Shown: piece after piece, positions 46,493 to 49,859 of the stretch
Numbering within the stretch: position 1 is the stretch's first letter
Layout: every line of letters starts with the position of its first letter
From: Colwellia sp.
Lineage (GTDB): Bacteria > Pseudomonadota > Gammaproteobacteria > Enterobacterales > Alteromonadaceae
Assembly: GCA_029938115.1 (NCBI GenBank)
Contig: JAPYOP010000002.1
Coordinates: 68,216 to 132,215 of the forward strand
Direction of reading: 5' to 3'
DNA: 64,000 nt
The notes under the pieces: generated by a model
Told to the model about the DNA's origin: nothing
The model's database searches: none
The model's input: the letters and a program-made list of their open reading frames with translations, nothing else
Program-made: the position numbers and the translations under genes

Positions 46493-47131
46493 ATGAACTT
46501 AAATTTTACTGACTTTTCCGCTAACCAGCGTTACCATTTAATGACGCAAACTATCATTCCACGCCCTATCGCTTGGGTATTAACTGATTCAAACACTGAC
46601 GCTGACAACAGTAATTTTAACCTAGCCCCTTTTTCTTATTTTACTGCAGTTTCTAGTGCGCCACCTATACTGATGTTATCAGTAGGAAAAAAGGCAAATG
46701 GTGATGACAAAGATACCTTAGTCAATGTACGTAAGAATAATGAGCTCGTCATTCATATACCATCTCAGCATCAAGCTGAATTAGTTACCAAAACAGCAGC
46801 AACTTTAGATCATGGCGATTCTGAATTACAAGCGACTAAATTAGCAACCACAATGTTTGAGGGCTTTCCTCTACCCAGATTAACTGATTGTGCGATTGCT
46901 TATGGCTGTGAACTCTATGAAATTAAAGGGCTTGGCGATGTACCGCAAAGTTTAATTTTTGTTGAAGTTAAGCAGGTTTACCTTAATGACAAGGTTGCTA
47001 CTATTGATATTGATGCTCATGGAAAAGAACGAATTAAAATTCATGCCGATAAAGTAAAACCCTTAGCACGTCTTGGTGGTGGAGAATATGCAGGTATAAC
47101 CACTCCTTTTGCACTAGCAAGACCTAAATAA
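46493..47131 (+). CDS. Flavin reductase-like FMN-binding protein
   Basis: A 212-residue split-barrel flavoprotein of the flavin reductase-like (DIM6/NTAB) family. IIPRPIAWVLTDSNT near residue 20, NLAPFSYFTAVSSAPPILMLSV and VIHIPSQHQAELVTKTAA are characteristic FMN-binding segments. The substrate is unknown. It begins 6 nt after gluQ and is followed 30 nt later by an SDR gene, and both are inserted between gluQ and pcnB compared with E. coli; a small redox pair on the same transcript is likely. Confidence 0.85.
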   Translation: MNLNFTDFSANQRYHLMTQTIIPRPIAWVLTDSNTDADNSNFNLAPFSYFTAVSSAPPILMLSVGKKANGDDKDTLVNVRKNNELVIHIPSQHQAELVTKTAATLDHGDSELQATKLATTMFEGFPLPRLTDCAIAYGCELYEIKGLGDVPQSLIFVEVKQVYLNDKVATIDIDAHGKERIKIHADKVKPLARLGGGEYAGITTPFALARPK

Positions 47132-47161
47132 CTTGTTAATAATATCAAAAAGGAAAAAATC

Positions 47162-47827
47162 ATGTCTAAAACAATCGTAATTACCGGTGCAAACCGAGGC
47201 ATAGGTTTTGCAATGGCGAAAATTTGCAAACAGCGTGGCGATAAAGTTTATGCGCTTTGCCGACAAAGCAGTGCGCAACTTGTGGCACTAGACGTAAATA
47301 TTATTGAAAATATTGATATTGCCCAAGATGAAGGTATAGCTAAAGCCGTAACCGCCCTTAACAATATCCATATAGATTTATTAATCAACAACGCTGGCAT
47401 TTTACGAGATGAAAGTTTACAAGATTTCAATAAAGACACCATTCTTGAACAATTCAATGTTAATGCTTTAGCGCCATTAGCGTTCACACAGGCACTATTA
47501 AATAACGTTAACGCTGGCAGTAAAATCGCTTTTATCACCTCACGCATGGGTTCAATTTCCGACAACGGTTCCGGGGGGCGTTATGGTTATAGGATGTCCA
47601 AGGTGGCATTAAATATCGGTGCTATGTCATTAGCTAAAGACTTAACCGCACAGAAAATTGCTGTAGGTATTTATCATCCAGGTTATGTACAAACAGATAT
47701 GGTTAACCATGGTGGCGATATTAGCGCAGATGTTTCAGCTGGTCGGCTTTTAGGTCTAATGAATGAGTTAACTATGAGTGAGTCTGGTGTTTTCAAACAT
47801 TCTAATGGTGAAGTCTTACCTTGGTAA
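47162..47827 (+). CDS. Short-chain dehydrogenase/reductase
   Basis: A 221-residue classical SDR with a Rossmann fold. The cofactor loop TGANRGIGFAMAKIC is at about residues 7-21, NNAGILRD at about 80, the catalytic Ser in ITSRMGSISDN and the YxxxK in YGYRMSKVALN. The substrate is not predictable from sequence. It belongs with the preceding flavoprotein gene and ends with a rho-independent terminator. Confidence 0.88.
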   Translation: MSKTIVITGANRGIGFAMAKICKQRGDKVYALCRQSSAQLVALDVNIIENIDIAQDEGIAKAVTALNNIHIDLLINNAGILRDESLQDFNKDTILEQFNVNALAPLAFTQALLNNVNAGSKIAFITSRMGSISDNGSGGRYGYRMSKVALNIGAMSLAKDLTAQKIAVGIYHPGYVQTDMVNHGGDISADVSAGRLLGLMNELTMSESGVFKHSNGEVLPW

Positions 47828-47857: not shown

Positions 47858-47885
47858 GCAGCGCTCTGAAAAAACGCTGCTTTTT
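47858..47885 (+). terminator. Rho-independent terminator after the SDR gene
   Basis: GCAGCG (47858-47863), an 11-nt loop, CGCTGC (47875-47880) and five T. It separates the gluQ-SDR unit from pcnB. Confidence 0.8.
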
Positions 47886-47960
47886 CATTCTCTTTTCAGC
47901 TGGATTGCTGTATCATTGCGCCAATATTTTCTATAAGATTCAGCCAAAAAGGTCTGCACT

Positions 47961-49367
47961 ATCAAACGCGTTATTAACCTATGTAAAAAGGTTTTCACTA
48001 AAAAAACTAGTAAAAAAACCAAAACCAGCAACCACGTCGCGACACTTGAGCAACCTATTGTCCTTTCGCGTGATCAGCATCCTGTCTCTCGTCAGCTCAT
48101 TAGCCCAAGTGCACTTAAAGTTTTATATCGCCTCAATAAAAGTGGCTTTGACGCTTATCTAGTCGGTGGTGGTGTCCGTGATATTTTGCTTGGTCTTAAG
48201 CCAAAAGATTTTGATATTGCCACCAATGCTACTCCAGAAGAAATTAAAGGCTTGTTTAGAAATTGCCGTTTAATTGGTCGTCGCTTTCGTTTAGCCCATA
48301 TTGTCTTTGGCAGAGAAATTATTGAAGTGGCCACCTTTCGTGGTCATCATGATGAAAAAGATCAACAAGATAAGAAAACTTCAAAGCAATCTGAACATGG
48401 CATGTTATTGCGTGACAATATTTATGGCAGCATTGAAGAAGATGCCCAGCGCCGTGACTTCACTATTAATGCCCTTTATTATTCCACCAAAGACTTTAAA
48501 GTATTTGATTTTGCCAACGGCGTTAAAGATGTTGAAAATAAAGTTATTCGCTTAATTGGCGACCCTGAAACGCGTTATCGTGAAGATCCTGTGCGCATGT
48601 TACGCGCTATTCGTTTCGCCACTAAGCTTGATATGAAAATTGCGGATGAAACTCGCGCTCCTATTGCTGAATTAGCACCGTTAATGGCTAATATACCTGC
48701 AGCACGGTTATTTGAAGAATTTTTGAAAATGTTCATCTCTGGTAAAGCCGTAGCCAACTATGAACAGTTAAGAAGCTATAATTTATTTATCTATTTCTTT
48801 CCGGCTGTTGAACAAGAGCTCAATAATAATAACGAACTACTCGAGCGCTTTATTCTACTCGCGATGGGAAACACCGATAAGCGTATTAATAATGAGCAAC
48901 GAGTGACGCCTGCTTTCTTGTTTGCCGCTATGCTTTGGTACCCTCTGCAAAAAGCTATTCAACAAATCAATGCTATGAATCAGCTTGCACCTCAAGATGC
49001 ATTTTTCGCAGCCTTAAGTGAAATAATGCCTGAGCAGCAACGCAGCATTGCCATTCCTAAACGCTTTCAAGCCATGATGAAAGATATTTGGATTTTGCAA
49101 GAAAAACTGGCTCGTCGCGAAGGGAAAAAATCATTCAAAACATTTGAGCACCCTAAATTTAGAGCCGGTTATGATTTTTTATTGTTACGCGCTGAAATTG
49201 AAACTGACAATCCTCACTTGAGCGAGTTAGCTAAATGGTGGACAGATTTCCAAGAAGTTTCTAATGAAGCACGCCTGCAAATGATTAAAGGTATTAAAAG
49301 CCCTCCGAGCAGTAAACGACGTACCCCAAGAAAGCGTCGTAAGCCTGCAACACCAAAAGCTGACTAG
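47961..49367 (+). CDS. pcnB: Poly(A) polymerase I (probable AUC start)
   Basis: A 468-residue class-II nucleotidyltransferase that adds 3' poly(A) tails and marks RNA for decay. The frame runs from a stop at 47934 and contains no ATG, GTG or TTG until a TTG at 48186, which lies inside the catalytic site. Upstream residues ISPSALKVLYRLNKSGFDAY and VGGGVRD plus the DFDIATNAT pair are needed for activity and match E. coli PcnB, so the start must be upstream. ATC at 47961 has AAGG 8 nt before it, and its product KRVINLCKKVF aligns with E. coli TRVANFCRKVL just after the E. coli start, which is AUU. The C-terminus is basic (KRRTPRKRRKP), as expected for RNA binding. Confidence 0.9.
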   Translation: MKRVINLCKKVFTKKTSKKTKTSNHVATLEQPIVLSRDQHPVSRQLISPSALKVLYRLNKSGFDAYLVGGGVRDILLGLKPKDFDIATNATPEEIKGLFRNCRLIGRRFRLAHIVFGREIIEVATFRGHHDEKDQQDKKTSKQSEHGMLLRDNIYGSIEEDAQRRDFTINALYYSTKDFKVFDFANGVKDVENKVIRLIGDPETRYREDPVRMLRAIRFATKLDMKIADETRAPIAELAPLMANIPAARLFEEFLKMFISGKAVANYEQLRSYNLFIYFFPAVEQELNNNNELLERFILLAMGNTDKRINNEQRVTPAFLFAAMLWYPLQKAIQQINAMNQLAPQDAFFAALSEIMPEQQRSIAIPKRFQAMMKDIWILQEKLARREGKKSFKTFEHPKFRAGYDFLLLRAEIETDNPHLSELAKWWTDFQEVSNEARLQMIKGIKSPPSSKRRTPRKRRKPATPKAD

Positions 49368-49370
49368 ATA

Positions 49371-49859
49371 ATGGTAATCGCATATATTGGCTTAGGTAGT
49401 AATTTATCTGAGCCAATTAAGCAGGTTGAATCAGCCATATTAGCAATTGGAAAAACTCCTCACAGCCAAATCATTCAAGTATCCTCACTTTATCTTAGCA
49501 AGCCGATGGGGCCACAAGATCAAGGTGATTATATCAACGCTGTTTTAGCTCTTGAAACCTCACTATCTGCTATTAAACTACTTGATGCTTTGCAAGCGAT
49601 AGAAAACAAAGCAGGTAGAATACGCAAAGAAAATCGTTGGGGCGCACGCATATTAGATCTCGACATTATTCTATTTGGTAATGACATTATTAATACTGAC
49701 CGTTTAACAGTGCCGCACTACGGCATGTGCGAACGTGAGTTTGTTTTATTACCATTAGCAGAAATAGCCTCAAAATTAAATTTGCCCAATGGCGATAGTG
49801 TAAATTTTTTAAGCCAAAACATTGCGAATAATGGCATAACAAGACTAATACCAAGTTGA
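49371..49859 (+). CDS. folK: 6-hydroxymethyl-dihydropterin pyrophosphokinase
   Basis: A 162-residue HPPK of folate synthesis. AYIGLGSNLSEPIKQVESAI at the start, VSSLYLSKPMGPQDQGDYINAV, and RWGARILDLDIILFGNDIIN, which holds the ATP/magnesium site, are present. It starts 3 nt after pcnB, as in E. coli pcnB-folK. Its last codons, ATA-CCA-AGT-TGA, lie in the left terminus of MITE copy C, which supplies the stop. Confidence 0.95.
   Translation: MVIAYIGLGSNLSEPIKQVESAILAIGKTPHSQIIQVSSLYLSKPMGPQDQGDYINAVLALETSLSAIKLLDALQAIENKAGRIRKENRWGARILDLDIILFGNDIINTDRLTVPHYGMCEREFVLLPLAEIASKLNLPNGDSVNFLSQNIANNGITRLIPS

Follow-up and report, generated by a model that had tools for sequence, protein, structure and literature searches.

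Translation of pcnB, the gene for poly(A) polymerase I (PAP I), very likely begins at an AUC codon in Colwellia sp., judging from a 64,000-nucleotide stretch of its DNA (the window) in which this ATC occupies positions 47961–47963 of the + strand. The pcnB frame is closed upstream by an in-frame TAA (47934–47936, +), and from this stop to a TTG at 48186–48188 (+) the window contains no ATG, GTG, or TTG in frame. The segment between the two encodes the PcnB N terminus together with VGGGVRD, and no canonical codon in frame fits as the start of the protein. Around the start the frame reads DSAKKVCT-IKRVINLCKK...VGGGVRDILLG, and its stop codon ends at 49367. A Shine-Dalgarno (SD)-like AAGG (47949–47952, +) lies 8 nt before the ATC; thus, a triplet of the AUU/AUC/AUA kind stands at a working distance from an SD, albeit a weak one (SD energy at the ATC −3.4; genus median −3.2). 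An earlier note on this DNA had placed the TAA, AAGG, ATC, and TTG at the same coordinates and had claimed that no ATG, GTG, or TTG precedes the TTG at 48186; reading of the frame bore out both.

Read from the ATC, pcnB (47961–49367, +) encodes 468 amino acids. The product scores 530.7 bits against TIGR01942 (pcnB), above the cut-off of 305.65, and 622.9 bits against the PcnB equivalog NF008634, below the cut-off of 702, though this is its best-scoring family. A profile alignment pairs residues 2–463 with positions 3–463 of NF008634, which, like the conservation described below, supports the AUC start that the earlier note had proposed. The head, RNA-binding, and Arg-rich C-terminal domains are all present (Pfam PF01743, PF12627, and PF12626, respectively). 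On these profile matches the product is predicted to be a poly(A) polymerase, and it falls within the subfamily TIGR01942 and not within the narrower model NF008634. It is the single full match in its own genome, a draft of 5.2 Mb in 278 contigs (99.64% complete); a second stretch, 35% identical to PcnB and located on a separate contig, is possibly cca. The claimed alignment with the N terminus of E. coli PcnB holds, apart from a one-codon ambiguity directly after the start (M-F-T-R-V versus I-K-R-V). The best solved structures, which we take to be those of E. coli PAP I, match the product only from residue 33 or 34 onward. The first ∼30 residues of PcnB may therefore be dispensable for catalysis; no canonical start is found at the ∼30-residue point of the window pcnB either.

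The start of pcnB is present in 38 of the 39 Colwellia genomes that were searched, and every one of the 38 has ATC at the start position; the remaining genome (G027, 76% complete) gave no pcnB match. Most named loci whose start regions are identical carry the name Colwellia, and one carries the name Litorilituus. This comparison of relatives' upstream regions at 47961 had been proposed in the earlier note, and the agreement of all 38 genomes makes an assembly error unlikely. A sequencing or assembly error, or a pseudogene, was accordingly rejected as an explanation, the frame being open as well. On a tree of the 38 loci, built from the rest of the pcnB fragment and 6.2 substitutions per site in length, the third base of the ATC underwent 0 changes, compared with 3–12 changes at each of 13 other conserved Ile codons. 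Elsewhere in the fragment, Ile is mostly encoded otherwise, with ATC at 135 of 612 Ile codons. We conclude from these substitution counts that the third base of the pcnB ATC is under constraint, in support of the earlier suggestion that the start codon is under selection, with the caution that some conserved Lys codons, including the one after the ATC, are unchanged as well.

To look beyond the genus, 246 family, 120 order, and 140 class genomes were searched. The loci read were up to the best 30 matches per search plus regions hand-picked across genera and families (60, 40, 40, and 20), and the sample is therefore not random. A motif served to label the loci: AUU or AUC occupies the homologous place in 67 loci of the family, 48 of the order, and 38 of Colwellia. 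Another 30 were ambiguous and were set aside, 2 had no motif, and 10 order loci were labeled AUG by hand. Most labeled family and order loci carry AUU or AUC there, usually behind an SD, and in E. coli MG1655 the AUU at the homologous place is the annotated start. The earlier note had spoken of a conserved non-AUG start, with a codon different from the E. coli AUU, in a distant genus. Conservation and difference both stand, but “a distant genus” understates the spread over 67 family and 48 order loci. In several family loci, such as L089, L111, and L143, two AUU/AUC codons stand side by side at the start. Judged by SD distance, the first codon of such pairs is favored in some genera but the second one in Colwellia, and the start may therefore slide by one codon.

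A codon-blind test was also applied, in which the longest SD match was taken and the in-frame codon 5–7 nt further on was read. With an SD of at least 5 nt, AUU/AUC was found at 32 of 41 assigned order loci and at 22 of 32 assigned family loci, with canonical codons at 0 in either group (order: 79 loci, 34 without SD, 4 ties; family: 79 loci, 36 without SD, 11 ties); the background share of AUU/AUC codons in this test is 7%–9%. The test is weak when restricted to Colwellia: at 5 nt, the 10 assigned loci included 2 AUC, 2 canonical, and 5 AAA, and at 4 nt, AUC was read at 15 of 23 assigned loci, with 2 canonical and 15 ties. Class loci outside the order gave no signal (at 5 nt, 2 AUU/AUC and 1 canonical among 21 assigned; at 4 nt, 7 AUU/AUC and 1 canonical among 35), and an extension of the AUU/AUC start to the whole class was set aside. 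Among 68 unique class loci, the RxEH anchor was present in 64, of which 9 have no ATG, GTG, or TTG between the upstream stop and RxEH (L237, L253, L297, L299, L303, L305, L306, L308, and L314). Several of these carry ATT or ATC 7–8 codons before RxEH. Outside the order, the class may contain another non-AUG architecture, a short one.

The median SD energy is −6.0 at 153 AUU/AUC starts and −1.0 at random places; by group, the medians are −7.2 (order), −6.1 (family), and −3.2 (Colwellia). No clear trend in SD strength was seen between AUU and AUC starts (medians −5.4 and −6.95, respectively, in the family, and −7.2 and −7.2 in the order). Ten order loci from three lineages seemingly start at AUG, mostly with little SD (median energy 0.8, range −3.2 to 2.2). 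A PcnB tree with 163 loci has AUU/AUC at its root and requires three changes to account for these ten loci. The clearest case lies within one family, where L193 reads AGAGGTTAGCT-ATC-CTT and its sisters L194, L195, and L349 read ...TTC-ATG-GT; that the ATG is the true start is less certain in the other two lineages. A trade-off between start codon and SD strength is suggestive only. L195 and L349, with AUG, reach −3.2, the Colwellia level, and three of the loci set aside combine a canonical codon with a good SD (L217, ATG, −6.6; L208, GTG, −7.2; and L218, TTG, −8.3), which would contradict the trade-off if those codons are the true starts. L217 contains an ATT TTT ACT stretch that resembles the E. 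coli start and has no SD, and its ATG with the good SD lies 16 codons before the anchor; it may represent a lineage that moved to a strong start.

We consider it probable that AAGG-guided translation of pcnB from the AUC at 47961, a triplet disfavored by IF3, leads to few initiations and keeps PAP I scarce. The AAGG would guide the ribosome to the AUC, where the initiator tRNA would be used, presumably giving a protein with Met at its N terminus. AUC would pair with this tRNA at two of three positions, its third base mispairing with the CAU anticodon. A review places AUC in a class of triplets discriminated against by IF3 (PMC4611024); initiation at such a codon would be rare, and PAP I would be scarce as a result. 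In E. coli, deregulated PAP I has been tied to slow growth or lethality (PMC3997798), and selection for scarce PAP I would be explained by the harm that deregulated PAP I does. What selection acts on, we infer, is low output.

A different reading, which we regard as rather unlikely, holds that IF3 sensing itself was selected, the AUC being kept so that a shortage of IF3 raises PAP I, in the manner of E. coli infC. The discrimination by IF3 against AUC and the retention of AUU/AUC in most labeled loci fit this reading, as does infC, which is autoregulated and has an AUU start in E. coli and an AUC start in Streptomyces (PMC5472188). In S. aureus, infC starts at AUA (PMC13009471), and all three triplets belong to the same IF3-discriminated class as the Colwellia pcnB start. 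The start codon of infC serves autoregulation, whereas no feedback for pcnB is described in the literature searched. Against IF3 sensing, and against the monitoring by IF3 that the earlier note had suggested, ten order loci seem to use AUG, so the sensing codon is not always kept. Colwellia infC itself reads GGAGG-AAC-ATG-GCT-AT[T/C]-AAA-GGT-GGA in 27 of the best 30 matches (L260–L289; 3 not parsed; 36 of 39 genomes matched). The AT[T/C] two codons after this ATG is presumably at the position of the E. coli infC AUU start. Since all 27 parsed loci carry the ATG, a loop of the E. coli type cannot be assumed, and the loop may differ: infC autoregulation may have been lost in Colwellia, or initiation may still occur at the inner codon.

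Taken across the order, scarcity through rare initiation can be extended to a wider scheme, which we put forward tentatively. PAP I dosage would be held low order-wide through two interchangeable initiation designs, the ancestral AUU/AUC behind an SD, or an AUG whose SD is slight or absent, with three switches between them. The third base would be tuned within a design, the Colwellia AUC not being exchangeable with AUU; the codon would thus act as a quantitative dial and IF3 sensing would be a side effect.

Alternatively, something other than initiation could preserve the third base of the ATC, for instance an RNA structure, a site in the DNA, or an N-terminal context that has to stay fixed; we regard this as very unlikely. 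The AAA right after the ATC is likewise unchanged, but it is nothing special, as 4 of 10 conserved Lys columns, this one among them, show no change. No Rfam family was found near the pcnB start at gathering score. The ungapped leader columns −14 to −10, where the SD lies, underwent 1, 1, 0, 3, and 0 changes, whereas columns −9 to −1, between SD and ATC, changed 2–8 times each. This pattern in the leader and the ATC resembles what an SD with its start codon would leave.

A start elsewhere near the ATC, whether at a GTG two codons upstream, at the codon just before the ATC, or by a frameshift from a TTG open reading frame at 47905–48162, is highly improbable. The GTG is found in 20 of 38 genus genomes, but the window and 17 other genomes lack it, and it lies only 3 nt after the AAGG, too close for normal use. 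No ATG, GTG, or TTG occurs between the upstream stop and the ATC in 14 of the 38, and in 4 canonical codons occur elsewhere, at least 8 codons from the ATC; L019 has a TAA three codons before the ATC. The codon preceding the ATC varies within the genus (ACT, ATT, ATC, GCT, or CCC) and therefore is not a general start. The TTG frame exists, but its 47905 start lies upstream of the transcript start inferred by eye. A short PcnB made from the TTG at 48186, the first canonical start in frame, with the upstream reading due to chance, has a negligible probability, as it would cost the Pfam head domain its first 11 positions, VGGGVRD included, and the residues upstream are conserved among relatives.

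The AUU start of E. coli pcnB was reportedly described by Binns and Masters in 2002. Elsewhere, E. coli is said to have two genes of this sort, pcnB among them (PMC9410913). The Colwellia start resembles it in being a non-canonical codon behind an SD and differs in that the codon is AUC, the SD is weaker (genus median −3.2 versus −7.2 in MG1655), and the start is about one codon off relative to the protein. Of rare starts in other genes, the GTC of Streptomyces sigR likewise keeps a dose-sensitive protein low and is IF3-sensitive, in a different codon, gene, and phylum (PMC5472188). S. aureus cvfC1 (AUU, conserved among Staphylococci) and ccpN (AUA) are also non-canonical, with an extended SD, unlike the short one of Colwellia pcnB (PMC13009471). 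The E. coli pcnB AUU and IF3-discriminated starts as a kind are thus already known; new, as far as we searched, are a pcnB start at AUC, the absence of variation in this codon across the genus, and the wide spread of AUU/AUC over the order. The literature searched, to which Binns & Masters 2002 and Hecht 2017 did not belong, contained no report on the pcnB start codon of an organism other than E. coli; the conservation may have been noticed earlier.

Our comparison points to a trait that is probably old and widely retained and that contains its own natural experiment, so that IF3 regulation versus plain low dose as the role of rare starts becomes testable through swaps of codon and SD. Gene finders restricted to ATG, GTG, and TTG are unable to place the pcnB start; sigR and infC have been misannotated in the same way, according to an mBio paper (PMC5472188).

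Upstream of pcnB, alignment of the 38 genus regions revealed conserved blocks such as ATTCTCTTT and TATCATTGCGC at 47890–47922, which are probably its promoter. Within a conserved block, GTATCATTGCGCC (47910–47922, +) was noted by eye as a possible −10 region. A consensus scan for promoters and terminators around pcnB returned no + strand site of either kind; a terminator-like inverted repeat with a T run, recognized by eye after the upstream SDR-like gene (47858–47885, +), has a loop that exceeds the scanner's limit. The window pcnB sits between this SDR-like gene and folK, the latter named by its position in the gene order (49371–49859, +). The neighbors are partly shared with E. coli (dksA, gluQ, pcnB, and folK), where pcnB directly follows gluQ; in the window, two extra genes, flavin-reductase-like and short-chain dehydrogenase-like by eye (46493–47827), lie between gluQ and pcnB.
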